From: Afipia clevelandensis ATCC 49720
GTDB taxonomy: Bacteria > Pseudomonadota > Alphaproteobacteria > Rhizobiales > Xanthobacteraceae
Direction of reading: 5' to 3'
Assembly (NCBI RefSeq): GCF_000336555.1
Contig: NZ_KB375281.1
Span: 2,964,926 to 3,028,925, forward strand
Length of the DNA stretch: 64,000 bases
Part shown: piece after piece, positions 30,128 through 48,067 of the stretch
How the letters are laid out: each line of letters starts with the position of its first letter
Numbering within the stretch: the stretch's first letter is position 1
Notes under the pieces: model-generated
Seen by the model: only the letters and a program-made list of their open reading frames with translations
What the model was told of the DNA's origin: nothing
Database searches by the model: none
Program-made: the position numbers and the translations under genes

Positions 30128-30446
30128 GCCTTACTCCTTGTTCGTGTTCTATTTTCCGAGCTTTGATCGCGAGAGCCTAAGCAAAAAGACGGGACCGATC
30201 AAACGTCACATCCGCATTGAGGGAATGCAGAAAGCGGCATTGCTTGCACCTTCCGCACAATCTGCTTTCGCAACTGCGAAATAACATCATGCGCATCGCG
30301 AACACGCACGCTTCACGTCCAGATGATCGCACGATGACACCCGCGACGAAAATCGGCGTTGCAAAGTTTTGCGCGCCGGTTGTTAATTAGAACAATTACA
30401 AAAAACGATTTCCAAAAGTCCGTTGGAATCACTTTGGGAGGTGCTT
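30128..30446. other. Intergenic region between pcaI and the Mo-hydroxylase operon
   Basis: No gene is seen in these 319 bases, which separate two divergent operons and must hold both promoters. TTGTT (30380-30384) and AACAA (30391-30395) form a small dyad around AATTAG, about 50 bases before the small-subunit start. The region near 30375-30415 is AT-rich. No sigma-70 element with good spacing could be fixed by eye. Confidence 0.5.
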
Positions 30447-30932: not shown

Positions 30933-31017
30933 TCCGCGACGAGGACTCACTCATCGGATGTGCAGTCGCCCGCGCTGCTCGCGCGACCACGGCGACGATT
31001 ATGGAAAGGTCGAGATT

Positions 31018-33372
31018 ATGAGTGCTGAAGGTATCGGCGCACGGGTTACGCGCAAGGAAGACAAGCGTTTCATCACCGGCAAGGGCAAATATACCGACGA
31101 CGTCCGCCTGTTTGGCATGACTTACGCCTCGTTCGTCCGTAGCCCCCACGCCCACGCAAAAATCAAAAGCATCAAGGTCGACGCCGCCAAGGCCATGCCG
31201 GGCGTGGTCGATGTGCTCACCGGCCAGCAGATCGTCGACGACAAGGTCGGCAACCTGATCTGCGGATGGATGATCCATTCCAAGGACGGCTCGCCGATGA
31301 AAATGGGCGCGTGGCCGGCGATGGCGCCGGAAGTCGTGCGCTTTGTCGGAAACGCCGTGGCCGTTGTCATCGCCGAAACCCGCAATCAGGCGCGCGACGC
31401 CGCCGAAGCCGTCGAGGTGGTTTACGAAGAACTCCCCGCCGCCGCCGATATTCGCGCAGCCATCGCCGCCGGCGCGCCGCAGCTTCATCCTGAAGCACCC
31501 GGCAATGTCATCTATGACTGGAGCATCGGCGACGAAGCCGCGACCAACGACGCTTTCAAGAAGGCCGCCAATGTGGTGGCGATGGACATCACCAACAACC
31601 GGCTGGTGCCGAACGCGATGGAGCCGCGATCTGCCGTGGCGGAATACGATTCCGCCGAGGATCACTTCACGCTCTATACGACATCGCAGAATCCGCATGT
31701 CGCACGGCTGGTGCTGTCGGCGTTCTACAACATCGCACCAGAGAACAAGCTGCGCGTGATCGCGCCCGATGTGGGCGGCGGCTTCGGCTCGAAAATCTTC
31801 ATCTATCCGGAAGAGATGGTGGCGCTGTGGGCCTCCAAGCGCACCGGCCGTCCGGTGAAATGGACCGCAGACCGCACCGAGGCGTTTCTCACCGACGCCC
31901 ATGGCCGCGATCATCTCACCAAGGCCGAGATGGCCTTCGACAAGGACAACAAGATCATCGGCCTGCGGGTGAAGACCCACGCCAATCTCGGCGCCTACAT
32001 GTCGCTGTTCTCGTCCTCGGTCCCGACCTATCTCTACGCCACGCTGCTGTCGGGCCAGTACAACATCCCGAATATCTACGCCGAAGTCATCAGCGTCTAC
32101 ACCAATACCACGCCGGTCGACGCCTACCGCGGCGCGGGCCGTCCGGAAGCCTCGTTCGTGATGGAGCGGCTGATGGAAACCGCGGCGCGGCAGCTCAAGG
32201 TCGATCCGGCCGAACTGCGGCGCAAGAACTTCATCACCAGCTTCCCGCATCAGACACCGGTGATCATGGCCTACGACGCGGGCGACTTTAACGCCTCGCT
32301 GGATGCCGCGCTGAAAGCCATCGACTATGCCGGCTTCCCTGCCCGCAAGGAGAAGGCGAAGAAGGAAGGCAAGCTGCGCGGTATCGGCTTCTCCTGCTAC
32401 ATCGAAGCCTGCGGCATCGCGCCGTCGAAGGCCGTCGGCAGTCTCGGCGCAGGCGTCGGCCTGTGGGAATCCTGCGAGGTGCGGGTCAATCCCGTCGGCA
32501 CCATCGAAATCCTCACCGGCTCGCACAGCCACGGTCAGGGCCACGAGACGACGTTTGCCCAGGTGGTCGCGGATCGCCTCGGCATTCCGATCGGTCAGGT
32601 GTCGATCGTTCACGGCGACACCGACAAGGTGCAGTTCGGCATGGGCACCTACGGCTCGCGCTCCGGCGCGGTCGGCATGTCCGCCATCGTGAAGGCGATG
32701 GAAAAAGTCGAGGCCAAGGCAAAGAAGATTGTCGCGCACCAGCTAGAGGCTTCCGAGAACGACATCGTCATCGAGGAAGGCCAGTTCAAGGTGGCCGGCA
32801 CCGACAAGGCCATCGCGCTGCCGATGGTCGCGCTGGCCGCCTACACCGCGCACAACCTGCCGGACGGCATGGAGCCCGGCCTGAAGGAAACCGCGTTCTA
32901 CGATCCGACCAACTTCACCTTCCCCGCCGGCGCCTATGTCTGCGAAGTCGACGTCGATCCCGGCACCGGCAAGACCGACATCATCAACTTCGTTGCCGCC
33001 GATGACTTCGGACGCCTCATCAATCCGATGATCGTCGAAGGCCAGGTCCATGGCGGCATCGCGCAGGGCGTCGGCCAGGCCCTGCTCGAAGGCGCGGTCT
33101 ATGACAAGAGCGGCCAGCTCGTAACAGCGTCGTTCATGGATTACGCCATGCCGCGCGCCGACGATCTGCCGTCGTTCAAGATCTCGCACACCATGACGCC
33201 GTGCCCGAGCAATCCGCTCGGCATCAAGGGCTGCGGTGAAGCCGGCGCCATCGGCTCGACGCCGGCGGTGATCAACGCCATCACCGACGCCATCGGCACC
33301 AACAATCTTGAAATGCCGGCCTCGCCGTCGCGGGTGTGGCACGCGATCCATCAACAGCAGGCCGCAGAGTAA
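31018..33372 (+). CDS. Molybdenum hydroxylase large subunit (CoxL form II type)
   Basis: A 784-residue subunit with the molybdopterin-cytosine-dinucleotide cofactor. It begins GARVTRKEDKRFITGKGKYTDD, has GGGFGSKIF near 260 and the active-site loop AYRGAGR at 369-375. In true CO dehydrogenases this loop is AYxCSFR with a Cu-binding cysteine, so this is a form II enzyme whose substrate is probably an aldehyde, purine or N-heterocycle. The late CGEAGAIGSTPAV contains the catalytic glutamate. It follows the small subunit by 85 bases; the medium subunit starts 12 bases after its stop. ATG 31018 has AAAGG upstream. Confidence 0.9.
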   Translation: MSAEGIGARVTRKEDKRFITGKGKYTDDVRLFGMTYASFVRSPHAHAKIKSIKVDAAKAMPGVVDVLTGQQIVDDKVGNLICGWMIHSKDGSPMKMGAWPAMAPEVVRFVGNAVAVVIAETRNQARDAAEAVEVVYEELPAAADIRAAIAAGAPQLHPEAPGNVIYDWSIGDEAATNDAFKKAANVVAMDITNNRLVPNAMEPRSAVAEYDSAEDHFTLYTTSQNPHVARLVLSAFYNIAPENKLRVIAPDVGGGFGSKIFIYPEEMVALWASKRTGRPVKWTADRTEAFLTDAHGRDHLTKAEMAFDKDNKIIGLRVKTHANLGAYMSLFSSSVPTYLYATLLSGQYNIPNIYAEVISVYTNTTPVDAYRGAGRPEASFVMERLMETAARQLKVDPAELRRKNFITSFPHQTPVIMAYDAGDFNASLDAALKAIDYAGFPARKEKAKKEGKLRGIGFSCYIEACGIAPSKAVGSLGAGVGLWESCEVRVNPVGTIEILTGSHSHGQGHETTFAQVVADRLGIPIGQVSIVHGDTDKVQFGMGTYGSRSGAVGMSAIVKAMEKVEAKAKKIVAHQLEASENDIVIEEGQFKVAGTDKAIALPMVALAAYTAHNLPDGMEPGLKETAFYDPTNFTFPAGAYVCEVDVDPGTGKTDIINFVAADDFGRLINPMIVEGQVHGGIAQGVGQALLEGAVYDKSGQLVTASFMDYAMPRADDLPSFKISHTMTPCPSNPLGIKGCGEAGAIGSTPAVINAITDAIGTNNLEMPASPSRVWHAIHQQQAAE

Positions 33373-33384
33373 GGAGGCACGACC

Positions 33385-34185
33385 ATGTACGAGACCACCT
33401 ATCATCGCGCCTCAAGCGTCGAAAACGCGCTCGATCTGTTCAAGAGGGGATCGGACGCAAAGTATCTCGCCGGCGGACAAACTCTGCTGCCGGTGATGAA
33501 GCAGCGGCTGGCGCAGCCGTCGGATGTCATTGACCTTGCCCGTATCCCGGGCCTGAGCGGCGTGTCGGCCACCGGCGACGCGCTCGTCATCAAGGCGGCG
33601 ACGACCTATTACGACATCATGACCAGCGCCGATGCGAAGAAGGCCATCCCCGCCATCGTGCATCTGACCTCGGTGCTCGGCGATCCCGCCGTGCGCTATC
33701 GTGGCACCATCGGCGGCTCGATTGCCAACAACGATCCGGCGGCGGATTTCCCCGCAGCCCTCGTGGCGCTCGACGCCACGGTGAAAACCAACAAGCGCAG
33801 CATCAAGGCCGATGATTTCTTCCAGGGCCTGTTCACGACCGCGCTGGAAGACGGCGAGATCATCACTGAGGTCTCGTTCCCGATTCCGGCAAAGGCCGCC
33901 TACGAGAAGATGCGTCACCCGGCGTCACGCTTCGCGCTCACCGGCGTGTTCGTCGCGAAGACGAAATCGGGAGACGTCCGTGTCGCCGCCACCGGCGCAT
34001 CGCAAAGCGGCGTGATGCGCGTGCCGGCCATCGAGGCTGCCTTGAAGGCGAACTGGTCCGCCAGCGCCATCGACGGAGTGAAAATCTCCGCCGACGGGCT
34101 GATGGAGGATATCCATGGCTCGGCGCCCTACCGCGCCAACCTGATCAAGGTGCTGGCGCAACGCGCGGTTACAGCGGCAGGCTGA
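33385..34185 (+). CDS. Molybdenum hydroxylase FAD-binding medium subunit (CoxM-like)
   Basis: A 266-residue flavoprotein. The two FAD pyrophosphate loops are AGGQTLLP (29-36) and TIGGSIANNDPAADFP (108-123), both standard for this family. The C-terminal CO-dehydrogenase flavoprotein domain includes ASRFALTGVFVAK. It receives electrons from the [2Fe-2S] subunit and hands them to a quinone or another acceptor. Third gene of the operon; a terminator follows at 34205-34232. No CoxD/E/F-type maturation genes are next to it. Confidence 0.9.
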   Translation: MYETTYHRASSVENALDLFKRGSDAKYLAGGQTLLPVMKQRLAQPSDVIDLARIPGLSGVSATGDALVIKAATTYYDIMTSADAKKAIPAIVHLTSVLGDPAVRYRGTIGGSIANNDPAADFPAALVALDATVKTNKRSIKADDFFQGLFTTALEDGEIITEVSFPIPAKAAYEKMRHPASRFALTGVFVAKTKSGDVRVAATGASQSGVMRVPAIEAALKANWSASAIDGVKISADGLMEDIHGSAPYRANLIKVLAQRAVTAAG

Positions 34186-34204
34186 CACCGCCAAATCGAA
34201 ACTT

Positions 34205-34232
34205 AACGGCGCGCAGCGATGCGCGCCGTTTT
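34205..34232 (+). terminator. Intrinsic terminator of the Mo-hydroxylase operon
   Basis: AACGGCGCGCA (34205-34215), loop GCGA, TGCGCGCCGTT (34220-34230) then TT. An 11-bp perfect stem ending in a short U-run, 20 bases after the medium-subunit stop codon. Confidence 0.85.
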
Positions 34233-34476
34233 CGTTGAATCGGCGCTGTTTTGCGAGCTTTCGAGCCGCCGATAGCTGTTTCGGTCCGAAAACCGCCGCA
34301 AACGGCCACCAAAAGCCTCGGCATCACAGTATTCGTTGGTGCTTTTGCCGCAACTGCCCTAAAGCACATCCAATTCATCCTCGCGCCGATGCCTCAGTCC
34401 GGTCACGCCCTTCGGGAGCGATGACCGCTGCGTCTCGGCTGTTTCTGGCGATCCCGCCAATCAAGGTCTGACGTTC

Positions 34477-36423
34477 GTGAAATCCCTGCCTGCAAGTCCG
34501 CCGCTCGCCCGTGCTCTGGCCGAGCGCAACTATCATGACGCAACGCCGGTCCAGACGGCCGTGCTCGCGCCCGAGGCCATCGGCCGCGATCTTCTGGTGT
34601 CGGCGCAAACCGGCTCAGGCAAGACGGTCGCTTACGGGCTCGCAATCGCAAGTGACATGATGGGTGACGCCGAGCGCCTGCCGCGCGCCGCATCGCCGCT
34701 CGCGCTGATCGTCGCGCCGACCCGCGAACTCGCCTTGCAGGTTCATCGCGAACTGGAATGGCTGTACGCCCATGCCGGCGCGCGCGTCGTATCCTGTGTC
34801 GGTGGCATGGACCCGCAGCGTGAAAAGCGCGAACTCGAAGCCGGAGCGCATATCGTGGTCGGCACGCCGGGCCGGCTGTGCGATCACATCCGCCGCAAGC
34901 GTCTCGACGTCACCGAGCTGAAAGCGGTCGTGCTCGACGAAGCCGACGAAATGCTCGATCTCGGCTTCCGCGAGGATATGGAATTCATCCTGGAGACGAC
35001 GCCCGAGACGCGGCGGACGTTGCTGTTCTCGGCAACCCTGCCGCGCACCATCATTACGATGGCAAAGCAGTATCAGCAGGATGCATTCCGCATCGAGGTC
35101 GCCGGTGGTGACGGTGGCCACGCCGACATCGAGTACCGCGCCATCCGCATCGCCCCCGGCGATGTCGAGCATGCGGTCGTCAATGTCCTGCGCTTCTTTG
35201 AATCGCCGACCACCATCGTGTTTTGCAACACCCGCAACGCGGTGAATCATCTGCAGGCTGCACTCCTGGAGCGGGGCTTCTCTGTCGTCGCGCTCTCCGG
35301 CGAACTGACCCAGAACGAGCGCACCAAGGCACTGCAATCCCTGCGCGACGGCCGCGCGCGGGTCTGCGTGGCCACCGATGTCGCCGCCCGCGGCATCGAC
35401 CTGCCCAATCTCGGTCTCGTGATTCATGCGGACCTGCCAAACGACCCGGAGGTGCTGCAGCATCGCTCCGGCCGCACCGGACGCGCCGGCAAGAAAGGCG
35501 TCAGCGTCCTCTTGGTCGTGCCGGCGCGGCGGAAGCGCGCAGAATTTCTGCTCGATCACGCAGGCGTTGAAGCGGCCTGGGGTGTAGCGCCTACCGTTGA
35601 GGAAATCCGCGCGCTGGACCAGCAGCGCATGCTGCAGGATGGACTGTTCGGCGAGGCGGCGACCGAAGACGATCTTGTGCTGGCGCGGACATTGCTCGCA
35701 GAGCGGTCGGCGGAAGACATCGCAACGGCATTGGCGCGGCTCTATCGCTCACGCCTTCCCGCGCCCGAAGACATTCTCGATCCGGGACAGGGGCGCTCAC
35801 GCGACGAGCGCGGCTCAAAGCGCGACAGCCGCGAGCCCCGCAGTGATGATCGTGCGCAGAAGTCAAAAGCGAAGCGGGCCGAGATGCCGGAAGGCAGCAT
35901 GTGGTTTCGCGCCGCGATCGGCCGCAACAAGAATGCCGAAGCGCGCTGGCTGCTGCCGATGATCTGCCGCCGCGGCGGAATCGGCAAGCAGGACATCGGC
36001 GCCATCCGCATTTACGGCAGCAGCACCGAGTTTCAGATTTCCGCCAACGCCGTCGATGGGTTCACTGCAAAGATCAAACGACCCGACAAGGAAGACAATA
36101 TCCGCATCGAGGCATTGCCGGACGGGCCACAGGGCGAGACCGCGGCTTTCGACAAGCGCCCGCGCAAGCCGGCTCGTGAGGATGGAGACTTCAGTGCAAG
36201 GCCGCGCCGCGAGGACAAGCCGCGCTACGACGATAAGCCGCGCTACGACAAGCCGAAGCACGGCGGCAAGCCTCAAGGTGAGGACGCACGCCGTTTCGAG
36301 AACGCGCCGGCGCGCGGCAAAAATCTGCCAACCGGCAAAAAGGCAAACCGCAAGGAATGGCCCGATGTCGAGAAGCCGGCTTTCGGCAAGAAGCCGAAGA
36401 AGAAGCACCGCAAGGGACACTGA
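34477..36423 (+). CDS. DEAD-box RNA helicase with DbpA-type RNA-binding domain
   Basis: A 648-residue helicase. Visible motifs: Q motif ATPVQ (22-26), Walker A AQTGSGKT (43-50), DEAD (154-157), SAT (185-187), ARGIDLP (304-310) and HRSGRTGRAG (329-338). Residues about 474-545 (GSMWFRAAIGRNKNAEARWL onward) are a DbpA-like C-terminal domain, which in relatives recognises structured rRNA. The last hundred residues are low-complexity and rich in Lys, Arg, Asp, with a short DKPRYD repeat. Such enzymes remodel rRNA during 50S assembly or help RNA decay in the cold. The start is GTG 34477. Confidence 0.88.
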   Translation: MKSLPASPPLARALAERNYHDATPVQTAVLAPEAIGRDLLVSAQTGSGKTVAYGLAIASDMMGDAERLPRAASPLALIVAPTRELALQVHRELEWLYAHAGARVVSCVGGMDPQREKRELEAGAHIVVGTPGRLCDHIRRKRLDVTELKAVVLDEADEMLDLGFREDMEFILETTPETRRTLLFSATLPRTIITMAKQYQQDAFRIEVAGGDGGHADIEYRAIRIAPGDVEHAVVNVLRFFESPTTIVFCNTRNAVNHLQAALLERGFSVVALSGELTQNERTKALQSLRDGRARVCVATDVAARGIDLPNLGLVIHADLPNDPEVLQHRSGRTGRAGKKGVSVLLVVPARRKRAEFLLDHAGVEAAWGVAPTVEEIRALDQQRMLQDGLFGEAATEDDLVLARTLLAERSAEDIATALARLYRSRLPAPEDILDPGQGRSRDERGSKRDSREPRSDDRAQKSKAKRAEMPEGSMWFRAAIGRNKNAEARWLLPMICRRGGIGKQDIGAIRIYGSSTEFQISANAVDGFTAKIKRPDKEDNIRIEALPDGPQGETAAFDKRPRKPAREDGDFSARPRREDKPRYDDKPRYDKPKHGGKPQGEDARRFENAPARGKNLPTGKKANRKEWPDVEKPAFGKKPKKKHRKGH

Positions 36424-36585: not shown

Positions 36586-36667
36586 AGGCGCCAAGACGGC
36601 GTGACCGCCGGGTTGGGCGGAGTTCTATGCGAGGATTCCCGTCCAGACAAGGCGCTGGAGAGGTTTT

Positions 36668-36691
36668 CCGGTCCCGGAATCGCGGGACCGG
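36668..36691. repeat. Hairpin downstream of the glycosyltransferase operon
   Basis: CCGGTCCCG (36668-36676), loop GAATCG, CGGGACCGG (36683-36691): a perfect 9-bp stem 78 bases past the stop of the last glycosyltransferase gene. On the minus strand no U-tract follows, so it is a candidate Rho-linked or RNA-stabilising end rather than a clear intrinsic terminator. Confidence 0.45.
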
Positions 36692-36768
36692 GAAGCCAAT
36701 GCAGCGGACCAGCCGTTAAAGAGGCAAATTCGGCCGTCTTGCCCCGTTCCGCCGCAGGCAGGCCGCCG

Positions 36769-37458
36769 CTACCGGGGCTTGTTCCTGTGCTGAAGGATGA
36801 TGCTCCGCAGGGCATTCATGGTTTCCTCATCCCTTTCCCCGGTGCTCGTGCGTCCGTAATTGTTCTGGTGCAGCCTGCGGTGGACGATCACTTGATCCAG
36901 CATTCTGGTCGCAAGTCCCATCTGCTTCGCGCGGCCGAGCCATTCCACGAACGAGACGCCGCCGCGATACGAGGGATCGAACGCGCCGATCCTGTCGAAC
37001 TCGGACCTGCGAATGAGCATGCAGGTGCGAATCTCCCCCGGGGCGATGTCCGCGGCGGGCTGCATCGCGGGTCTGCGCTCCAGCGGAACATCAGGGCTGA
37101 TGAACTGCTTCATCAGCCCGAAGACGGCGCCCAGTTCCGGAGCCGTCTGAAGAGCCGCGAGTTGTCGCGCCTGCTTCTCTTCGGCCCAGATGTCGTCGGA
37201 ATCCTGGAATGCAAGCAACTCTCCCCGCGCCATGCCGATCGCACGGTTGAGGGCCGCGGTCTGGCCACGGTTGTCCTGCGTGACAAGCGTCGCGCGCGGC
37301 GAGAAACTCTCGACGATGGCCCGGGTGCTGTCGGTCGACCCGTCATCGACAACAATCACCTCGGCTGGAGGCACGCTCTGCCGCAGCACGCTGTCAATGG
37401 CTTCGGCGACATACAGTTCGGCGTTGTACGCCGCCATGACCACCGACACCTGCGTCAT
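36769..37458 (-). CDS. Glycosyltransferase family 2 protein (second of pair)
   Basis: A 229-residue GT-A fold enzyme. The N terminus MTQVSVVMAAYNAELYV and the nucleotide-binding VIVVDDGSTD are followed by the metal-binding QDSDD and a C-terminal acceptor region (FDPSYRGGVSFVEW). There is no membrane segment. It transfers a sugar from a nucleotide donor to an unknown acceptor. Its start overlaps the stop of the upstream GT2 gene by four bases. It is the last gene in the PqqD-HprK-GT2-GT2 operon, which points to glycosylation of the same substrate the kinase acts on, or of a surface glycan. Confidence 0.86.
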   Translation of the reverse strand: MTQVSVVMAAYNAELYVAEAIDSVLRQSVPPAEVIVVDDGSTDSTRAIVESFSPRATLVTQDNRGQTAALNRAIGMARGELLAFQDSDDIWAEEKQARQLAALQTAPELGAVFGLMKQFISPDVPLERRPAMQPAADIAPGEIRTCMLIRRSEFDRIGAFDPSYRGGVSFVEWLGRAKQMGLATRMLDQVIVHRRLHQNNYGRTSTGERDEETMNALRSIILQHRNKPR

Positions 37459-38141
37459 CGCGGATTGCCCGGCTGTCGGGCCCGCCGCAGTTTCCGGATG
37501 AGGGATGCCGAGATTCCTTCCCGAATCTTGAGCAGGTCATTCGAAGCATTCCCGGCATGGCGACGGTAGCAAAGGCTGATGATGTCGACGCGAACTTCCC
37601 GCATGCCTGCCTCGGCGAGCCTTATGGAGAAATCAATGTCTTCGCCAAAATGCATGCCCTCATCGAAGTGGCCAACGCGATCAATCAAGTTGCGGCGGTA
37701 AAGACCTGTTGCGATATGCGCAGACATATACTGCCCCTCCCACGAGACCGAGTGGGACGAACTGAGGGCGTCTGCTTCAACGATAACGTGCATCCGCCCA
37801 TAGACAGCGTCGCAGTCCCGCTGGCGCCGCATAACTTCGAGAAAACTTTTATGGCGACCTTCAGGCCATGCATCGTCATGATCGAGAAAGCAGATAAATT
37901 CCCCCGATGCATGGTCCAGCCCGATATTGCGCGCGGATGAGACACCCTTCGCAAGGCCGGGAAGAATTCTGATACGCGAATCTCCAATACGCCGGACAAT
38001 CTCACACGTATTGTCGGTGCTGCCATCATCGACAACCAGGATTTCGTCATCATCCTGCAATTGAGCCGTGACCGACATTATCGCCTGGGCAATAAAGCGC
38101 TCTCCGTTTCGCACCGGAACAATGACGCTCGTGACGGTCAT
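37455..38141 (-). CDS. Glycosyltransferase family 2 protein (first of pair)
   Basis: A 228-residue GT-A fold enzyme. MTVTSVIVPVRNGERFI, VVDDGSTDN (around 37-45) and the DHDD metal site (about 87-90) are typical, as is HFGEDIDFSIRLAEAG near the base-binding end. It is only broadly similar to its downstream neighbour, so the pair probably adds different sugars or acts in sequence. It starts six bases after the HprK-like gene and overlaps the next GT2 by four bases, all signs of translational coupling. The acceptor is unknown. Confidence 0.86.
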   Translation of the reverse strand: MTVTSVIVPVRNGERFIAQAIMSVTAQLQDDDEILVVDDGSTDNTCEIVRRIGDSRIRILPGLAKGVSSARNIGLDHASGEFICFLDHDDAWPEGRHKSFLEVMRRQRDCDAVYGRMHVIVEADALSSSHSVSWEGQYMSAHIATGLYRRNLIDRVGHFDEGMHFGEDIDFSIRLAEAGMREVRVDIISLCYRRHAGNASNDLLKIREGISASLIRKLRRARQPGNPR

Positions 38142-38147
38142 CTGGCA

Positions 38148-39149
38148 CTACACTCGATCAAGAAAATCCCGGAACGCGTCCGGAATATAGTTGGGCGTGG
38201 TCCCTGTATCCACAAAAAAGGCCGGAGCTTTTTCCACCAAGGCCGCGACCTTGCGGGTCGTCTTGTCGGGCCAGCCGAGAAGACCGACAGATGTGTGCGG
38301 CAGCAGCGCCGCGAACGCATCGGAGCGACGCGCCGAAGAAAAAACCGGCCTTTCGGAGCCAAGCCGGCGCGGCAGCAGGATCGCTGCGATCTTCCCGCCT
38401 CTCAAACGATGCTGGCCGAATGCGCCGCCAAGGCGCAACTCGTGCCGCGCATCGCCGTCATCGTGAGAGAGTTCGGCGGCGGTGTTGAGCAGGCCCGTAA
38501 ACTCCGACGCCGCGGTTATGCGAAGCCGCGCGGTCGCAAACAACGGCTCGACCTGTCCGGTGTCCGTATTCGCAAACACGAAATCATCTCCGGCATAATC
38601 CCAGCCCGCACGCGCGCAGGCGAGAGACGCGGTGGTCTTCCCGGACTTTCCCTTGCCCGCGAGCAGCAGAAAGCGTCCTTCGCGACCAACGCAACCACCA
38701 TGCACGGCACTCCACGCAGTATCCTTCGTCAGCGCATGAACGAGAGGAAGCCCGGGGCGGCTTGCATACCATGCGGGAGGAGCATCCTGAGGGAGCCAGA
38801 TCAGCGCCCGCTTCGATTCAAAATTCAGGAGCGAAAGAACGTCTTTCTCTCCAGGCTGCCAAGCAGCGTAGCCGGCCTCGCCTGCAAATGTACGAGGTCT
38901 GTCGCGGGGTACCGGGACGATGCCGGAAAGATCAACATCCTTGGCGCCTGCAACCGCCACCGTCAGATCGGCCCTTTGATCGTCACCCGAAAGAAACGAC
39001 GGCAGGAAAATATCCGCGAGGTCCGGCGAAGCAAATTTCAGGGAAAGCGTCAGCGATCCGCAGCGAACAAAATGGCATTCTGCGCGGGAAAAAATCTCGC
39101 TCTGAAAAATCTCATCGACGGATCGCGATAGTTGTCTGTCAGCGGACAT
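38148..39149 (-). CDS. HprK-like serine kinase (HPr-kinase-related, tailoring type)
   Basis: A 333-residue protein. The C-terminal half has the HPr kinase/phosphorylase P-loop GKGKSGKTT (165-173) in LLLAGKGKSGKTTASLACARAG and the acidic pair in YAGDDFVF (D188, D189). H150 lies in VHGG, as in HprK-related kinases. The N-terminal half is not the usual HprK domain. HprK relatives in lasso-peptide loci phosphorylate a serine of the peptide. The pair with PqqD resembles the uncharacterised HPr-rel systems of TIGRFAMs (from memory). ATG 39149 overlaps the PqqD stop by 11 bases; an in-frame ATG at 39185 is less likely. Substrate unknown. Confidence 0.78.
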   Translation of the reverse strand: MSADRQLSRSVDEIFQSEIFSRAECHFVRCGSLTLSLKFASPDLADIFLPSFLSGDDQRADLTVAVAGAKDVDLSGIVPVPRDRPRTFAGEAGYAAWQPGEKDVLSLLNFESKRALIWLPQDAPPAWYASRPGLPLVHALTKDTAWSAVHGGCVGREGRFLLLAGKGKSGKTTASLACARAGWDYAGDDFVFANTDTGQVEPLFATARLRITAASEFTGLLNTAAELSHDDGDARHELRLGGAFGQHRLRGGKIAAILLPRRLGSERPVFSSARRSDAFAALLPHTSVGLLGWPDKTTRKVAALVEKAPAFFVDTGTTPNYIPDAFRDFLDRV

Positions 39150-39561
39150 CGTCCGCCTTGACGGGCCAGCCAGCTTCGTCGACATCGTGAACGGGATCGA
39201 GAAGCAGCAGTTCCTTCAGGTCATCGAACCGATCGAGCACCGGAGCCTGAAATTCGTGCAGCAGGTCGAGCGACGGACCTGCGTTTTGATCCCCGCTGTC
39301 GGCCGGGACGATCAGGCCTTCGCGCACAAGGTGCGCGATGAACGCGCGGACGCTTGCTTCAACGTCCGCCGCCGCGGGAAATTTGCCGGCGAATGCGGTG
39401 ATGATGCTCTGATCGGACGCTCCGGCTCTTAACGCCAGCCACACCTTGGCGCCGCTGTCGGCAAGACTGTAATAGAGGCCGCTGTCGTAGTTCGCGAGCA
39501 CCACTTCGTCATCGAATTCCTTGCTGATGATCTTCGGTACTTCTGTTGTGTAGTACTGCAC
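39139..39561 (-). CDS. PqqD-like peptide-recognition protein with precursor-like C-terminal tail
   Basis: A 140-residue protein. Residues 1-85 are a PqqD/RRE fold: an early strand pair around EVVLANYDSGLYYSLADSGAKVW (its beginning is the substrate-binding edge) and a three-helix part ending FIAHLVREGLIVP. The tail (95-140) contains F-Q-A-P-V-L at 104-109, which fits the Y/FxxPxL motif that RREs bind in lasso-peptide leaders, then LDPVHDVDEAGWP (121-133). GTG 39561 is chosen because GGAGCAG lies before it and relatives start close to the first strand; ATG 39600 without a clear ribosome site is the alternative. First gene of the HprK-GT2-GT2 operon. Confidence 0.72.
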   Translation of the reverse strand: MQYYTTEVPKIISKEFDDEVVLANYDSGLYYSLADSGAKVWLALRAGASDQSIITAFAGKFPAAADVEASVRAFIAHLVREGLIVPADSGDQNAGPSLDLLHEFQAPVLDRFDDLKELLLLDPVHDVDEAGWPVKADDVR

Positions 39562-40032
39562 GGTTCTGCTCCGCAGAAATGAGACGTCATCAAATGCCAT
39601 GGCGGACGAGCGAAAAACATTAAAAAAGGCCGAAATCTTGCCCGCAAATCCATGGTTCAATAGCCTGGCCGCTCCCCGTTTTGCTACGTCAGGCGCTTGC
39701 CGGAAACCAAGTGAGCCGACGTGCGGATCAAGAAGGGACCAACCGCATATAATATATTAATACCTTCAATCACTTCGGAGGAAAAGAACTGGCTTCTTCC
39801 GGTTATCACAGCGCGCCGCTGACCTGCGCGATCAGGCGCGTCTCGAGCTGTTGCGTCAGGATCTCATCGGTTCCTATGTCGCGAAAGTCTTGTTGATTCC
39901 ATAACAACGATATTCATTGGCTACGATGAAACAGAGCGACATGGGACGTCGCGACTAGTATAAAGTTTAGTATCGCAAGTCAGTAAGAGCATATCATTCT
40001 TCAATGCATTTCTCCCGCCAGTTTTCCGCCTT
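39562..40032. other. Divergent intergenic region of the PqqD/nucleotidyltransferase cluster
   Basis: These 471 bases separate the PqqD operon from the nucleotidyltransferase gene. TATAAT at 39748-39753 is a good plus-strand -10 element, without a clear -35. GGAGG at 39777-39781 is a strong ribosome-binding site, but no ATG, GTG or TTG follows at useful spacing; only CTG 39789 does, opening a 35-codon frame rich in Ser and Cys that ends at 39896. Another frame (39761-39903) encodes a helix-like ADLRDQARLELLRQDLIGSY without a start codon. It may be a decayed gene or an undetected peptide gene. Confidence 0.4.
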
Positions 40033-41523
40033 ATGTCCTATCTGAACTCGAGACAGAAACTCATCCTGTCGGCGGCGCTCGATGCCCCGCCCAAAGCGCT
40101 GGAGTCGTTCAAGGCCTGGCAGAATGAAGTCAGGCTCGACGATATCGATGGCGCGGGCATACGCCTCGTCCCGCTGATCTACAAGAATATCGGACGAAGT
40201 ATTCCGGACAAGGATGTTGCGGGCCGCCTGAAAGGCATCAGCCGCTATACCTGGATCAGAAACAGCTACCGGGTCGATCTCTGCGCGCGTCTGCTCGGTC
40301 AGTTGAACAGCAGGGGCGTCTCCTCCGTTCTGCTCAAAGGGAGTGCCCTCATGGCCGGGATCACCGACGATCTCAGCACACGGCAGATGGGCGATTGCGA
40401 TCTTCTCGTTGCAGACCGGGATAAACACGTCGCCTTTGAAGCGATTGAGCGGGAAGGCATGCGTACGGTTCCGGCAAACTGGGCCGCGTTGAGTGAACCC
40501 GAGCGGGAATCGTTTCACGGGCTGACGTTTGAGATTCCCGACAAGCTACAGGACGCTATCGACCTGCACTGGCGCCCGCTGCGTGAAGTCACGAGCCTCG
40601 AACTGACGGACCGCTTTTTCAAGCATGCCCGTCCTGTTGTGGTCTATGGCCAGCAGACCCACATTCCCTGCGCCGAGCACATGCTGCTTCACTGCCTGGT
40701 TCATGGCGGCGAGGCGGATACTCGTGTGTCTTACGATTGGATCGCCGACGCTTTCCTGATCAGCAAATTTGCCGGTAATAATCTCGACTGGCGCCTGTTC
40801 GCAAGAACCGCACTTGACTTCCGGCTTGGCGCACTTGCCCGGCATGCGCTCGAAACCCTTCAGAAAGAAACCACGATCGACGTTCCACAAACTGCATGGG
40901 ACGAACTTAAGTCCGCCCCGATGACGTTTTCCGACCGGCTGGAAGCAAGGTATCGCGGAAAGCAAGACAAGCAGCACACCGCCGTTACGGAGACGGTTCG
41001 GCTGCTGCAATCTGTCCGACGTTCCAGCCCTCAGAATGCCGAGTTGCCGTTCACGCGCGCGCTCGGAAAAATGTGGCGGCTTTTCGCGACCGGATTTGTG
41101 GACGCGAGAACCAGCGGCCCGCGCAGCCGGGACGATGAAGTCTCGTATCCGACCGGATGGCACTATCAGGAAAGCACAGGCCGCTGGACTGCGGCCCGGC
41201 TGTCATCCGTTTGCCTTTCCAGAAGCCCGGAAAAGGAGTTCGGCGACGTTCTCCGCGTCACGGTCCGGTCGCCGCGATGGCAAGTCTTCGCCATCGCCAG
41301 CGGCTGGAGACTTTTAGTTCTGAGGCCGACATTCTCCGGCGGAGAAATTGCCGTCAGCGCGCATCTGCCGCCAACCTTGCGCCGCAAGACCGCCCTCAGC
41401 CTGCAATTTTTCGTTCTGCGACTCTGGTCTCCCGCCCGCCGCAGCAGCTCTCGCGATTTACGCTGGCTGGGCATTTTCGTCGGAAACATTCGCACGGCAT
41501 CTTCCAAACATACTGCTGACTGA
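40033..41523 (+). CDS. PF14907-type nucleotidyltransferase with C-terminal accessory domain
   Basis: A 496-residue protein. The nucleotidyltransferase core has VLLKGSALMAG (K102, S104) and MGDCDLLV with the metal aspartates D121 and D123, followed by IDLHW (177-180) and HCLVHGGEADTRVSYDWIAD, the usual pattern of the uncharacterised NTP_transf_5 family. Residues about 370-496 carry a separate module starting GWHYQESTGRWTAARLS, which recalls the WxxxE-x-x-G-x-W-T modules of surface-polysaccharide proteins. Members of this family occur in lasso-peptide loci with HprK-like kinases. It is divergent from the PqqD-HprK-GT2 operon. It may nucleotidylate the peptide or sugar; not known. Confidence 0.75.
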   Translation: MSYLNSRQKLILSAALDAPPKALESFKAWQNEVRLDDIDGAGIRLVPLIYKNIGRSIPDKDVAGRLKGISRYTWIRNSYRVDLCARLLGQLNSRGVSSVLLKGSALMAGITDDLSTRQMGDCDLLVADRDKHVAFEAIEREGMRTVPANWAALSEPERESFHGLTFEIPDKLQDAIDLHWRPLREVTSLELTDRFFKHARPVVVYGQQTHIPCAEHMLLHCLVHGGEADTRVSYDWIADAFLISKFAGNNLDWRLFARTALDFRLGALARHALETLQKETTIDVPQTAWDELKSAPMTFSDRLEARYRGKQDKQHTAVTETVRLLQSVRRSSPQNAELPFTRALGKMWRLFATGFVDARTSGPRSRDDEVSYPTGWHYQESTGRWTAARLSSVCLSRSPEKEFGDVLRVTVRSPRWQVFAIASGWRLLVLRPTFSGGEIAVSAHLPPTLRRKTALSLQFFVLRLWSPARRSSSRDLRWLGIFVGNIRTASSKHTAD

Positions 41524-41544
41524 AGCATCGTCTCGCGAAGACCG

Positions 41545-42654
41545 CTACGACGCCTTTTTATCCTTGGCTTTCTTGTCCTTCGCCTCGGCCTTGTCGGCTT
41601 TCTTGCGGTTGGTGAAGCGCGCGTTGCCAAGACCGGTGCCGATGGTCAACACGCCCCAGCGCGCGTAATCCTGCATGAAGGGAATTTCGCTCAATCCCTG
41701 CACCACGCCATCGTTGTGCATGAGCACCGCCGTATCGTGATCGCCGATGGTGGGGATCAGCTCGATCAGACTTGCCGGCAGATTGAATTTACTGCTCTCC
41801 CAGTTTCCCGGCAGATTCTGCGCGCCCTTTTCGATGGAGCCGTCCGCGTTGATCGCGCCGGGACATGACAAGCCAATAAACGGCGCAAGTTTCAGGCCCT
41901 CCTCCTCCGCTTCCTTCAGCAATCCCTTCAGCATGTTCGCCAGCTTCTTCACCGCGCCTTCGCGGGTCGGCTCATCGTCCGCGTGGCGCCAGAGCTCGGA
42001 CTTCCACACCGACGCCTTCGACAAGTCCGGTGTTTTCTTCTGGCGCGTCTCAACCACGCCGCAGCGAATGTTGGTACCGCCGATATCGACGCTAAGGATG
42101 CTGTCGTGGCCCTCGAAAATCCACGACGGCGCCAGATGGGCGCATCCGATCAGCGCCGCCTCATCGGGATGAAAGCGGATCGGGATCAGGCTGACCTTCG
42201 CGCCATCGGCCTTGAGGATGATGTCGGCCCGGGCAATCGCCAGCTCGCCGATCCGGCTTTGCCGGAAACCACCGCCGACAATGATCGCCTCGGTCTTGTC
42301 CCACGCCTTGGTCTTGAGAAAGCGGGACGTGACATAGGCCAGTTCCTGAGCGAATTCCTCGATCGCGCTATGGACCAGCGCCGCCGCCTCGACGTCGTCG
42401 CCCACAAGGATGCTGTCCAGGGTCTTCTTGCTGATGTCCTCGGTCGATTTCGCACCGAACGGGTCTTCGTCATTTTTCTTTAATGGTTTCCGCCACTTAT
42501 CGAGAATATTCTGAAACGCGCCCTTGCTGGCGCGGTCACCCAGGAAGCCGTCCTCGTCCTTGAGCTCGATATTGTAGCTGTCGATATCCACGGACGGCAG
42601 CCGCGCCGCCCCATGCTTGCCAATCCCGGCGGTTGCCAGCGTGTCCTCAGCCAT
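41545..42654 (-). CDS. ROK-family sugar kinase-like protein with permuted motif order
   Basis: A 369-residue protein. The ATP-binding DIGGTN (190-195), the NLPGNW substrate loop (280-285), the catalytic D315 (HND) and GTGLGN (339-345) are all ROK motifs, but they lie in the second half. The adenosine-side motif IIVGGGFRQSRIGE (124-137) and DEAALIGCAHL (164-174), which end a normal ROK kinase, here precede DIGGTN. The gene therefore looks circularly permuted. The last 19 residues are a Lys-rich tail. It probably phosphorylates a hexose or aminosugar, but no sugar pathway gene adjoins it. It is divergent from rplU. Confidence 0.8.
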   Translation of the reverse strand: MAEDTLATAGIGKHGAARLPSVDIDSYNIELKDEDGFLGDRASKGAFQNILDKWRKPLKKNDEDPFGAKSTEDISKKTLDSILVGDDVEAAALVHSAIEEFAQELAYVTSRFLKTKAWDKTEAIIVGGGFRQSRIGELAIARADIILKADGAKVSLIPIRFHPDEAALIGCAHLAPSWIFEGHDSILSVDIGGTNIRCGVVETRQKKTPDLSKASVWKSELWRHADDEPTREGAVKKLANMLKGLLKEAEEEGLKLAPFIGLSCPGAINADGSIEKGAQNLPGNWESSKFNLPASLIELIPTIGDHDTAVLMHNDGVVQGLSEIPFMQDYARWGVLTIGTGLGNARFTNRKKADKAEAKDKKAKDKKAS

Positions 42655-42803
42655 CCAGAAAGCCCCTTGTCTGTTGCCGGGGATAACGGCGAGGGAACAG
42701 GAAGGTTTCGGGCACCGGATGACCCGGCGGCGCGCCAGCGCTCAAACGCCCGGAAAATCGGCCCAAACCACGCGAAAATGGCCGGTTTTCCGGGCACTTT
42801 TCC

Positions 42804-42831
42804 TTGACTCACCGGTCGCCCCGGCTATAAC
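42804..42831 (+). promoter_or_regulatory. Housekeeping-sigma promoter of rplU-rpmA
   Basis: TTGACT (42804-42809), a 16-base spacer, TATAAC (42826-42831). It is the best -35/-10 pair in the region and points toward rplU. Transcription would begin near 42838. Confidence 0.68.
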
Positions 42832-42841
42832 ACCCGCAACC

Positions 42842-42873
42842 CGGCGCGGGAGTTTCTCGCGCCGTTTGTTTTT
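42842..42873 (+). terminator. Terminator-like hairpin in the rplU leader (candidate attenuator)
   Basis: CGGCGCGGG (42842-42850) pairs with CTCGCGCCG (42856-42864), nine pairs with one G-U, followed by TTTGTTTTT. No plus-strand gene ends here: the upstream neighbour is divergent. The structure therefore sits at the start of the rplU transcript and may regulate or stabilise it. Confidence 0.55.
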
Positions 42874-42987
42874 GCGTGGCATGGCCTCGACGCCGTAGCG
42901 ACGCAGATCATTGAACCCTTAGCGACTGAACAAGAAGCCGGCCCGGATCAATCCGAGCGCCGGGATTGAACACGAAGGATAAAAACG

Positions 42988-43479
42988 ATGTTCGCAGTCA
43001 TCAAAACCGGCGGCCGGCAGTTCCGCGTCGTTCCGGATGATGTCCTTGAGATTGGCAAGATCGCCGGCGATGTCGGCACGATCGTGCAGCTTGGTGAAGT
43101 GTTGGTGGTGGGCGGCGACACGCCGGTCCTCGGTGCTCCGTTCGTCAGCGGCGCGTCGGTGGCGGCTGAAGTGCTCGACCACAAGCGTGGCGCGAAGGTC
43201 ATCGCCTTCAAGAAGCGCCGCCGCAAGAATTCAAAGCGCAAGCGCGGCTATCGCGACGAAATCACGGTGATCCGCGTCACCGAGATTCTGACCGACGGCA
43301 AGGCCCCGAGCGTGGGTCCGCGCCCGAAGAAGGCAAAGGCCGAAGCACCAGCCGCTGAGGGTGATGCTCCTGCCAAGGCTGCGAAGAAGGCTCCGGCCAA
43401 GAAAGCCGCAGCTCCGAAGGCTGCAGCGAAGGCTCCCGCCAAGAAGGCTGCGCCGAAGGCAAAGAGCGACAAAAAGTGA
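42988..43479 (+). CDS. rplU: 50S ribosomal protein L21 with Ala/Lys-rich C-terminal extension
   Basis: A 163-residue L21. Residues 1-103 are the standard ribosomal domain (MFAVIKTGGRQFRV at the start, GYRDEITVIRVTEI at the end of the core). Residues 104-163 are an extension made almost wholly of Ala, Lys and Pro in AKKAPAKK-like units. This resembles histone H1-type tails and is seen in some Rhizobiales L21 proteins. L21 binds 23S rRNA domains in the 50S subunit. It is followed by rpmA after 56 bases, and expression is probably set by the promoter at 42804 and the leader hairpin. Confidence 0.95.
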   Translation: MFAVIKTGGRQFRVVPDDVLEIGKIAGDVGTIVQLGEVLVVGGDTPVLGAPFVSGASVAAEVLDHKRGAKVIAFKKRRRKNSKRKRGYRDEITVIRVTEILTDGKAPSVGPRPKKAKAEAPAAEGDAPAKAAKKAPAKKAAAPKAAAKAPAKKAAPKAKSDKK

Positions 43480-43535
43480 AATGATTCCGTCAAGGAATCG
43501 GTCTATAGACTAGACACAAGTTTGGAGACGGAGCG

Positions 43536-43805
43536 ATGGCTCACAAAAAAGCAGGCGGTTCTTCGCGCAACGGGCGCGACTCGGCTGGCAAGCGCCTCGG
43601 TGTGAAGGCGTTCGGCGGTCAGCATGTGATTCCGGGCAATATCATTGCCCGCCAGCGCGGCACGACCTGGCACCCTGGCCAGAACGTCGGCATGGGCACC
43701 GATCACACCATCTTCGCCAAGGTCGAAGGCCGCGTGGAATTCCGCGCCAAAGCCAACGGCCGCACGTACATCTCGGTTCTTCCGATGGTGGACGCGGCTG
43801 AATAA
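43536..43805 (+). CDS. rpmA: 50S ribosomal protein L27
   Basis: An 89-residue L27. [20 protein letters not shown] is the flexible N-terminal tail that reaches the peptidyl-transferase centre, and [17 protein letters not shown] is the family signature. The tail starts directly with MAHKKAGG, so no cleaved extension as in Firmicutes is present. It is co-transcribed with rplU, with a terminator about 60 bases after its stop. Confidence 0.97.
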
Positions 43806-43864
43806 ACGGTAGACACATCGCGTCTGCCGGATCTCGTTGAACCGGCAGAGCGCCAGAAGGCTCG

Positions 43865-43897
43865 AAAGGGGAGACGGGTAAACCGGCCTCCCCTTTT
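43865..43897 (+). terminator. Intrinsic terminator after rpmA
   Basis: AAAGGGGAG (43865-43873) and CTCCCCTTTT (43888-43897) form a 9-bp stem with a U-run, between rpmA and the GNAT gene. The loop includes a smaller CGGGTAAACCGG stem. Confidence 0.85.
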
Positions 43898-43939
43898 CGT
43901 TTGCGCTCGTGGGGGGCGAGCACATCAAGGAGCCTGACC

Positions 43940-44527
43940 ATGCTGCTGGAAAAGCCGACACCCACCTTGCGGGAATCAAGAGCCGTCGTCCTCGAGACCG
44001 ATCGGCTGGTCCTTCGTCAGCCGACACTCGCGGACGTAAAAGCCATTGCGCATGTCGTGGGTGACAAGCGCGTGTCGATCAATCTGCGCCGCGTGCCGCA
44101 TCCCTATACGGCCGAGGATGCCATCAGCTTCGTCACTACCATCGCCGCCACCATCGACACGGTGTTTCTGGTCGAGCGCGAACGCACGGTGGTCGGGCTG
44201 GTCGGCGTGAGCTGGGAAGACGAAAGCGCGCCGGAACTCGGCTACTGCTTCGGTGTCGAGCACTGGGGCAAGGGCTATGCCACGGAAGCCGCGCGTGCCG
44301 TCATCGACTACGCTTTCGAGGAATTCGCCATCGACCAGTTGCTGGCAGGCGCCCGCGTGCTGAACCCTGCGTCACGCCATGTGCTGGAGAAGTGCGGCTT
44401 CCAGTGGACCGGCGTCGAACTGCACCGATTTCTCGCGCTTGGATCGTCGACACCGGTCGACCGCTTCAAGCTGGAGCGCGGCGTGTGGTCGTCGATCAAG
44501 AGCTGGCACAACTCGACCAGGCGGTGA
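43940..44527 (+). CDS. GNAT-family N-acetyltransferase (RimJ-like)
   Basis: A 195-residue acetyltransferase of the RimJ/RimL subgroup: VLETDRLVLRQPTLADVKAI is the N-terminal signature. The acetyl-CoA pyrophosphate loop falls in GKGYATEAARAVIDYAFEEF. LNPASRHVLEKCGFQWTG is the closing V-shaped strand and helix. These enzymes acetylate protein N termini, amino acids or antibiotics; no substrate is evident. ATG 43940 is chosen over the longer frame from 43901 because AAGGAG lies about seven bases upstream. It stands alone between the rpmA terminator and a repeat element. Confidence 0.85.
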   Translation: MLLEKPTPTLRESRAVVLETDRLVLRQPTLADVKAIAHVVGDKRVSINLRRVPHPYTAEDAISFVTTIAATIDTVFLVERERTVVGLVGVSWEDESAPELGYCFGVEHWGKGYATEAARAVIDYAFEEFAIDQLLAGARVLNPASRHVLEKCGFQWTGVELHRFLALGSSTPVDRFKLERGVWSSIKSWHNSTRR

Positions 44528-44570
44528 CATTCGTTTCGTCATCCCGAGTGACGGACTGTAGCTAAGGTTC

Positions 44571-44654
44571 GTCATGGCCGGATTTATTCCGGCCATCCAC
44601 GTCTTTTGGCTGCTTTCACAAGGCGTGGATGCCCGGGACAAGCCCGGGCATGAC
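44571..44654. repeat. Short interspersed hairpin repeat, family A copy 2
   Basis: GTCATGGCCG starts the element, CCGGGCATGAC ends it, and GGCCATCCACGTCTTTTG lies inside, as in the copy at 1831-1918. GGCGTGGATGCCCGGGAC also pairs with the internal CATCCACG. It lies between the convergent GNAT and DMT exporter genes. Possible REP-like mobile hairpin; no coding capacity. Confidence 0.65.
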
Positions 44655-44744
44655 GGAAAAGATATCTTGCCTCCACTCATCGAACAAATTCGTCGCCTTT
44701 TGAGTCATATTCTGAGGTGCGAGCGGCGAGAGTGACCGCTAGGG

Positions 44745-45671
44745 TCACACCACCGTGGGCGGATTGGGCTCCGGCTCGCGGCGGGTCACCTTCTGCTCGC
44801 GGATGAAAATATAGATTCCCGCGCAGGCAACGATTCCCGCGCCGAGCATGGTGTTCGCCGATGGCACATCGCCGAACACCAGAAAGCCGAGCACAATGGC
44901 CCAGACGATCATCGTGTACTGAAACGGCGCGACCACGCTGGCCGGGGCGAGAATCAGCGAGCGATTGAGACAGAGCACGGCGGCGACGTTGACCACGCCG
45001 CTGATCAGCAGCGCCACCACCAGAATCCATGTCGGCTGGACAAAGATGAAGGCCGAAACGATCCCTCCGAACGCGAATGAACCGACCACCTGCGTGGTCG
45101 CGAGGAAGATGTTGGAGGTGCCGCGCACATAGCGTGTCACGATCATGAAGATCGACTGGCACAGGCACCCCGCCAGCGCGATCAGCGCTGGCCAGGAGAT
45201 CGCAGCCCCGGTCGGGCGCAGCGCGATCAGAACGCCGACAAAGCCCGCGGCGACGGCGCTCCAGCGCCGCCAGCCGACATGCTCGCGCAGGAAGATCGCC
45301 GAAAACGCCGTGACGAAAATCGGCGCGGCCAGATAGCAAGTGGTGGCGTCGGCGAGCGGAATATATTTGATCGCAGTGAAGAACAGCATGCCGTCCGAAA
45401 CCGACAGCATCATGCGCAACACCTGCAAGCCGGGTCTCGGCACGTTGCGCACAGCGGCAAAATTCTCTCGCGCGAGAAACGGCAGCAACGTCGCAATCGC
45501 CCCGAACCCGCGAATGAAAAAGAGCTGCGCCGGCGGATAGGCCGCCACCATCATCTTGCTGAAGACATTGACCAGCGAAAAGATTGTCATCGCCGCCAGC
45601 ATGAACAAAATGCCGGAGAGCGCGGACGACAGCGGCGTCGTGCGGCGAAAAAAGCGAGGCGGAAAATTCAT
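44745..45671 (-). CDS. DMT-superfamily (EamA) transporter 1
   Basis: A 308-residue membrane protein with ten predicted hydrophobic segments in two EamA repeats; each repeat contains the usual mid-membrane proline/glycine pattern (YLAAPIFVTAFSAIFLREHV and YTMIVWAIVLGFLVFGDVP). Members export amino acids or other metabolites. It closely parallels the upstream gene on the same strand (for example LADATTCYLAAPIFVTA against LADVITYYLAAPIFVTA), which marks a tandem duplication. ATG 45671 begins the family-like N terminus; the frame is open further upstream. The substrate is unknown. Confidence 0.86.
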   Translation of the reverse strand: MNFPPRFFRRTTPLSSALSGILFMLAAMTIFSLVNVFSKMMVAAYPPAQLFFIRGFGAIATLLPFLARENFAAVRNVPRPGLQVLRMMLSVSDGMLFFTAIKYIPLADATTCYLAAPIFVTAFSAIFLREHVGWRRWSAVAAGFVGVLIALRPTGAAISWPALIALAGCLCQSIFMIVTRYVRGTSNIFLATTQVVGSFAFGGIVSAFIFVQPTWILVVALLISGVVNVAAVLCLNRSLILAPASVVAPFQYTMIVWAIVLGFLVFGDVPSANTMLGAGIVACAGIYIFIREQKVTRREPEPNPPTVV

Positions 45672-45845
45672 CGGCAATGGCAGGCGCTGGACAGGATGAA
45701 AGACAACGCAATGACCGCACAACGCAATCGGTCCTGATTAGAAAGCAACCGGTCCGCGCGCAACCGCCAGAAACGCAGCCCGTTTCGCGCGGCCATGCTT
45801 TGAAGCAGAGCCTTGCGAGTTTGCCTTGAAAGTTCGCCCTGGGAG

Positions 45846-46766: not shown

Positions 46767-46885
46767 GGGGGCGTTGCCGGATAGCGTTAATTCGTCAAAA
46801 AAGCGCGCGGAGGACGTCGTTTAGAAGGCGAATGGCGGTTCGGCAACCGTTACAAATGCAGGCTTTGTCGCCATATCCTGCATGA

Positions 46886-48067
<1,182 letters not shown>

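Follow-up and report, generated by a model that had tools for sequence, protein, structure and literature searches.

Among the closest described systems are the linear polyphosphorylated peptides (LPPs), whose precursors carry the motif YxxPxVLxHQxIxFETxxS and whose core Ser is multiply phosphorylated (PMC13381572), and the lasso peptide pseudomycoidin, on which a kinase (PsmK) acts first and a hexose is then placed on the phosphoserine, a step linked to a nucleotidyltransferase homologue (PsmN), with direct action of the latter left open (PMC9266682). HPr-rel-A, a third such system, is catalogued through a kinase family (TIGR04352) and a PqqD family (TIGR04353). Here we describe a five-gene cassette in a 64,000-nucleotide stretch of Afipia clevelandensis ATCC 49720 (contig NZ_KB375281.1, positions 2,964,926 to 3,028,925; hereafter the window), in which a PqqD-like protein, an HprK-like kinase and two GT2 glycosyltransferases (a and b) face a PF14907 nucleotidyltransferase. 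The best reading of this cassette is a variant of the HPr-rel-A/LPP kind with the leader built into the RiPP recognition element (RRE; RiPP, ribosomally synthesized and post-translationally modified peptide).

The PqqD-like protein consists of an RRE fused to a C-terminal tail with the consensus FxxPxLxRFxDMxELLLLDPIHDVDExGWP, a strongly conserved, leader-like part that the preliminary description of the locus overlooked. When the RRE profile was compared with solved structures, the closest were TbiB1 (5v1u, 5e-18), PbaB1 (9x90), LppB (9x8z) and TfuB1 (6jx3), all of which were crystallised as RRE-leader complexes (PMC13381572). Over 24 aligned rows the tail is more conserved than the RRE, with mean column identities of 0.56 (residues 137-153) and 0.73 (residues 154-166), compared with 0.43 for the RRE and 0.28 for the linker. 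The 17 rows collected without a tail pattern gave 0.43 for the RRE, 0.30 for the linker, and 0.57 and 0.68 for the two tail halves, with D155 present in 17 of them, P156 in 16, H158 in 14, G164 in 13 and W165 in 14. PqqD proteins of loci reached through the kinase, which were found by whole-protein similarity and without the pattern, were tailed as well.

The motif [FYW]xxPx[LVIAFYM] occurs near the C-terminus (last 48 residues) in 19 of 25 proteins, whereas 2000 shuffles gave 3.5 ± 1.7 (maximum 11); the upstream parts contain it in 1 of the 25. With five later rows the count was 22 of 30. Leader and recognition domain seem to be united in one molecule. A profile of the tail alone, applied to 36 genomes or records, gave 25 matches, all on known tailed or short-tailed RRE proteins, with 150 candidate stretches scored in each of six genomes that had more, so that a free divergent tail could escape there. 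A PDB search with the tail alone returned no match.

We determined how often the cassette families adjoin a tailed PqqD protein in other genomes. With PqqD profiles, tailed proteins turned up at 13 places in the family (11 of 198 genomes), in 9 of 385 genomes of the class (our genome included; three of the nine short-tailed) and in 6 of 294 genomes from the phylum to which the Planctomycetia genome of locus L025 belongs, where one has an altered end. Among 72,556 plasmid records there was a single case, Crinalium epipsammum (NC_019735.1). A kinase search of the 198 family genomes gave matches in 17; tailed PqqD accompanied 11 of the 14 kinase-match places fetched in full and was absent from three (L036-L038). 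Nine further weak kinase places were left out of the counts, one of which (L024) adjoins a tailed protein. The resulting 29 loci (the window, 11 found through the kinase, 12 through PqqD and five late ones, also through PqqD) span the window's class, the phylum of a Planctomycetia genome and one cyanobacterial plasmid. The stretches fetched, which reached no more than 10 kb to either side, held the kinase in 26 loci, a GT2 enzyme in 26 and a PF14907 protein in 21; the kinase and nucleotidyltransferase profiles used for counting had themselves been trained on these loci (17 and 15 sequences). The 11 kinase-found loci were tallied apart, since there the kinase is present by construction; the 17 found through PqqD, including the Crinalium copy that both queries found, held the kinase in 14, GT2 in 14 and PF14907 in 11.

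Two loci carry fused frames, one joining HprK (residues 1-375) to GT2 (385-600) in a single open reading frame (ORF; L033:9029-10855) and one holding two GT2 domains (L034:9464-11680), which indicates that the enzymes are tied together. The cassette is genuine, and its families travel together in distant genomes. Because the window's own 4.4-Mb genome, a single contig with the cassette at 3.00 Mb, holds only eight GT2 matches (E <= 1e-10) and one PF14907 match, with one kinase match besides, their clustering in this locus exceeds chance. The preliminary description had set rare co-occurrence of the five families beforehand as its refuting test; no such rarity was observed, in the 29 loci or in the 17 found through PqqD, and the facing nucleotidyltransferase, which it had included, does belong to the set.

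On balance we lean towards a leader fused to its RRE, one protein providing RRE, leader and perhaps core; the enzymes would need no separate precursor gene and would act either on an acceptor lacking a leader or on the RRE protein. This broad reading unites two narrower ones, in which the tail serves for docking or is itself the substrate, and we rate it slightly below the two combined because both could err in detail. The docking version, which we put forward tentatively, is of a self-contained, horizontally spread HprK/PF14907/RRE cassette whose RRE, with its own fused leader, would dock and activate the enzymes for a leaderless acceptor. From sequence alone, our proposal is that the tail binds in cis, its FxxPxL motif folding back into the peptide groove of its own RRE. 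The RRE, permanently loaded, could then dock and activate the kinase, the nucleotidyltransferase and the GT2 enzymes through the LLLLDP(HDVxxxGWP) end. The kinase would phosphorylate this leaderless acceptor, and sugars would then be added to the phosphate, analogous to PsmK/PsmN on pseudomycoidin; we infer both the order of these steps and the identity of the acceptor.

A number of observations weigh against a leader built into the RRE. The linker would equally allow binding in trans. Thirteen of the tail rows were collected by a pattern requiring DP.H and GWP, so that in these rows full invariance of the required letters is by construction. Even the wide motif is absent from 8 of 30 tails, and the strict [YW] form occurs in 9 of 25 (shuffles 2.0 ± 1.4, maximum 7); the window tail has F. 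The published lasso recognition motif has Y or W in first position (PMC13381572); the cassette tails mostly have F there, a widening made in this analysis. The enzymes are also not detected throughout: the kinase is missing from 3 of the 17 PqqD-found loci (L072, which lies at a contig end, L073 and L079), the nucleotidyltransferase from five loci apart from the late ones (L033, L034, L073, L074 and L075), and both GT2 and nucleotidyltransferase from three of the five late loci (L167, L168 and L169), two of which reach contig ends.

If instead the tail were the substrate, RRE, leader and core would form one polypeptide, the GT2 enzymes and/or the kinase would modify DPxHDVxxxGWP (for example at His, Asp or Trp), and a host protease would later release a peptide or cofactor. 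We consider this unlikely, although none of D, H, G, W and P varies among 18 full tails (13 of these rows coming from the pattern that demanded most of them) and they are present in 13-17 of the 17 other rows, as expected of the precursor of a fixed product. O-linked modification could not be general, since Ser, Thr and Tyr are all missing after DP in at least 7 of 25 tails, among them the window's and two short ones; nor did the five genes and 30 neighbouring ORFs scanned contain a protease family. A substrate tail would agree with our failure to find a separate precursor in 16 cassette regions or in the tail-only search, and with the best NCBIfam match of GT2a, the mycofactocin glycosyltransferase MftF (TIGR03965; 83.7 bits, far under the cut-off of 280).

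The window tail (residues 137-173) contains no Ser, Thr or Tyr, so O-phosphorylation of this tail is excluded by its composition. That includes the paeninodin type, which the preliminary description had cited as an example and which falls for the tail; Ser, Thr or Tyr elsewhere in the protein could still be sites. Three short-tailed proteins (L076, L077 and L079) keep [Y]xxPxLxRYxDMAxLxALDP and are without HDVxxxGWP, which also speaks against the tail as substrate; their loci hold the kinase in two of three cases and nucleotidyltransferase and GT2 in all three. The leader-like part is the common denominator, and this favours docking over a fixed modified residue. In three further loci (L078, L138 and L171) the tail is altered near its end.

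Coordinates of the five genes and their parts are listed in Table 1. All five ORFs and their families were as given in the preliminary description: Pfam recovered the GT2 enzymes, PqqD and PF14907, and the kinase was recognised by profile and conserved residues. The tight packing it reported holds for the 4-base overlap and the 6-base gap between the remaining minus-strand genes, where the coordinates agree; the 11-base overlap of PqqD and kinase holds only if the kinase starts at ATG 39149, and the longer ORF from 39185 is open. For the PqqD ORF, homologues make a start at ATG 39600 more likely than one at TTG 39660.

Table 1. Features of the cassette, with positions counted from the first base of the window.
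Feature	Position	Strand	Evidence and remarks
GT2 glycosyltransferase b	36769..37458	-	229 aa; PF00535 6e-31 (Pfam)
GT2 glycosyltransferase a	37455..38141	-	228 aa; PF00535 3e-28 (Pfam)
HprK-like kinase	38148..39185	-	Start probably 39149; TIGR04352 8.7e-6, partial; HPr kinase structures; H162/K183/D200/D201
PqqD-like RRE protein with C-terminal tail	39139..39660	-	Start probably 39600; PF05402 9.5e-11
RRE domain of PqqD-like protein	39310..39543	-	About residues 40-117; Pfam, NCBIfam and structure-profile matches
Leader-like tail FQAPVLDRFDDLKELLLLDPVHDVDEAGWP of PqqD-like protein	39163..39252	-	Residues 137-166; alignments, tail-only search, motif controls
PF14907 nucleotidyltransferase	40033..41523	+	N-terminal nucleotidyltransferase domain and C-terminal extension; PF14907 6e-29, residues 44-275
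C-terminal extension of nucleotidyltransferase	40858..41520	+	Beyond the nucleotidyltransferase domain; comparison across cassette loci
Stretch absent from relatives (approximate ends)	36682..41548	.	About 4.9 kb; contains all five genes

The kinase had no significant Pfam match, and in NCBIfam only the partial match to TIGR04352. A profile built from 13 cassette kinases did match solved HPr kinases (1ko7 at 5.7e-7, 1jb1 and 2qmh). His162, Lys183, Asp200 and Asp201, numbered from the start at 39185, are conserved in 24, 24, 24 and 23 of 24 aligned HprK-like proteins; His-Lys-Asp-Asp is the motif set of lasso kinases (PMC9266682). In the nucleotidyltransferase, K102, G103, R117, D121 and D123 are invariant in 10 of 10 aligned cassette members, and in a wider set some rows lose part of the motif, chiefly second nucleotidyltransferases in short-tail loci and the first nucleotidyltransferase on the Crinalium plasmid. 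Judged from these alignments, the motifs of both window enzymes are intact. The C-terminal extension is carried by 11 of 19 nucleotidyltransferase-bearing cassette loci, and that of the window matched no Pfam family. PDB searches gave no match with the nucleotidyltransferase profile and nothing useful with single sequences. In L029, L030 and L138 a C-terminal unit of about 125-140 residues is present twice in the PF14907 protein. In L036, L037 and L038, from other genomes of the family, an HprK-like kinase lies beside a short PF14907 protein without a tailed PqqD.

The preliminary description had noted the similarity of the kinase and PqqD-like protein to the catalogued HPr-rel pairs. Both fall below the curated cut-offs, the kinase at 25 bits versus 200 (TIGR04352) and the PqqD-like protein at 16.5 bits versus 35 (TIGR04353). 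TIGR04352 scored above cut-off in 60 of 398 genomes of the phylum, and we examined 15 HPr-rel-A-type loci, drawn from 13 of those 60 genomes plus two places below the cut-off. As in the cassette, an HprK-like kinase and a PF14907-type nucleotidyltransferase adjoin in all 15. Unlike the cassette, none of the 15 stretches had a cassette-type GT2; their nucleotidyltransferases match the core alone of the cassette profile, the C-terminal extension lying beyond every significant match; and the short PqqD protein that the cassette profile detected in 3 of the 15 ends at the RRE in each case, without a tail. The tail-only profile had no match in the 13 genomes with canonical HPr-rel-A kinases. We therefore rejected a canonical HPr-rel-A locus on the two cut-offs and the differing loci. 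Two side observations concern the canonical system. A small ORF near HPr-rel-A genes (L102:6831-7364), with relatives in three other loci and no Pfam match, is a possible substrate of that system; its start resembles a twin-arginine signal. A 103-residue ORF just before an HPr-rel-A kinase (L106:7320-7631), with relatives in five other loci, may be read as PqqD-like, with no Pfam PqqD match.

With LPPs the cassette shares the discrete RRE, the HprK-like kinase, the NTP transferase, the absence of a lasso cyclase and a YxxPx-type recognition motif (PMC13381572). LPPs, which come predominantly from Bacillota, differ in that their precursors are separate and their clusters include a SipW-like peptidase and an MsbA-like transporter (PMC13381572); the cassette motif is fused to the RRE. 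A cassette closer to LPPs, its RRE serving a peptide encoded elsewhere and its tail an auto-inhibitory lid displaced by that precursor, would account for the shared core enzymes and for the RRE profile matching 9x8z (LppB with the LppA leader) and 9x90 (PbaB1 with the PbaA leader). We rate this as quite unlikely: neither a SipW-like signal peptidase nor an MsbA-like transporter is encoded among the five genes or the 12 nearby genes scanned (28760-36423 and 41545-49261), and no conserved small ORF accompanies the RRE in 16 cassette regions, although a genome-wide precursor search was not made. In those regions PqqD was the sole small ORF conserved in at least three of the 16, apart from ORFs antisense to cassette genes.

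As the preliminary description had held, this is not a standard lasso locus. The leader peptidase B2 (PF13471) had no match in the whole genome (E <= 0.001); it occurs in 3 of the 17 genomes with a kinase match, never near that match. Matches to the asparagine-synthetase-like cyclase (PF00733) lie at 1.90-1.91 Mb and 3.93 Mb, remote from the cassette. A standard lasso locus was rejected on the missing B2 match. The window does have a discrete B1-type RRE, as its match to TbiB1 indicates, though with a fused tail. Paeninodin and pseudomycoidin systems resemble the cassette in the His-Lys-Asp-Asp motif of their kinases (PadeK/ThcoK, PsmK) and in a nucleotidyltransferase homologue (PsmN), and their precursors end in a C-terminal Ser that has no counterpart in the window tail (PMC9266682). 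The cassette differs from them in having no cyclase, leader peptidase or lasso precursor.

Mycofactocin and PQQ systems also have a PqqD-like RRE, and mycofactocin a GT2 enzyme. The five cassette genes differ in lacking a radical SAM enzyme, and all matches to those systems are under cut-off. The curated cut-offs place the window outside HPr-rel-A, and parts of an LPP cluster are missing from it, yet it probably carries out the same chemistry.

The neighbourhoods of other copies bear on a further explanation, a carbohydrate or cell-surface locus in which the kinase makes a sugar phosphate that PF14907 activates and the GT2 enzymes use, with the PqqD-like protein a mere scaffold or regulator. 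Other glycosyltransferase families adjoin four loci (L026, L031, L032 and L035), FkbM methyltransferases adjoin L031 and the Crinalium copy, and the latter also has an ABC transporter. These neighbours vary between loci, some copies lie among unrelated genes, and an RRE with a leader-like motif would have no obvious role; we regard this as the least probable of the readings considered, and a doubtful one. The Crinalium copy itself lies on a mobilizable cyanobacterial plasmid (NC_019735.1 5896-17248; L069, L080), where the tailed cassette is accompanied by the FkbM methyltransferase, a second nucleotidyltransferase gene, a TPR protein and the ABC transporter.

The cassette occupies a stretch that is absent from related genomes, which the preliminary description also overlooked. 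We examined 15 genomes at the site between tRNA-Ser(CGA) and a ROK gene: the window's own, 11 relatives with the ROK gene and three without a ROK match at E <= 1e-40. A distance of 99-398 bp separates the aligned tRNA-Ser(CGA) and ROK blocks in five relatives from the same genus (L128, L129, L130, L133 and L137), versus about 4.9 kb in the window. In the sister genome L139, alignment ends at window position 36681 and restarts at 41549, with 1.5 kb of other genes between them. No tRNA-Ser(CGA) was present in the stretch fetched for L141, L143 and L144. The tailed PqqD protein was found in none of the 11 other same-genus genomes of the family sample. The G+C content of the stretch is 0.589, versus 0.626 ± 0.015 for window stretches of equal length (lowest 0.584), and at third positions it is 0.61-0.68 in four of the five cassette genes, 0.80 in GT2b and 0.74-0.84 in six flanking genes. 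Horizontal gain of the stretch is the simplest reading, with loss in several relatives as the alternative, and the cassette is apparently mobile.

Three candidate explanations of this mobility or function were not supported. Integration into the tRNA 3' end was set aside because the stretch is located 5' of tRNA-Ser(CGA). For a phage-borne element, phage records contained no kinase match, and viral contigs gave 41 pattern matches with no confirmed PqqD relative. For a defence system, kinase, PqqD, nucleotidyltransferase and ROK were all without a PADLOC match.

RiPPs are usually mined by way of their precursor peptide genes, and leader-enzyme fusions have been made in the laboratory. If the leader is indeed fused to the RRE, this group would escape precursor-based RiPP searches and would be a natural counterpart of the laboratory-made fusions. 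The conserved 30-residue tail offers a precise handle for finding the group and for testing HprK-like kinases and PF14907 enzymes outside lasso peptides. Our data suggest that the cassette is related to the machinery by which bacterial peptides are phosphorylated and glycosylated, and that this relative is unstudied. In the open-access literature searched we found no paper naming HPr-rel-A, TIGR04352, TIGR04353 or HprK-related, and a single lasso paper in which 'PqqD family' and 'HPr kinase' occur together. Of four papers on an RRE and precursor in a single polypeptide, none describes, judged by titles and the starts of abstracts, a leader fused to its RRE.

Gene content between tRNA-Ser(CGA) and ROK differs among relatives: L139 carries enoyl-CoA hydratase family and cupin ORFs there, and L140 and L142 an AraC-type regulator and a DUF2336 protein. 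This gap (window 36586-41545) may be an insertion hotspot. Further out, window 28760-34185 encodes two CoA-transferase subunits, oriented away from a three-subunit molybdenum hydroxylase (2Fe-2S, molybdopterin and FAD-binding), and window 44745-46766 encodes two EamA-type transporters.

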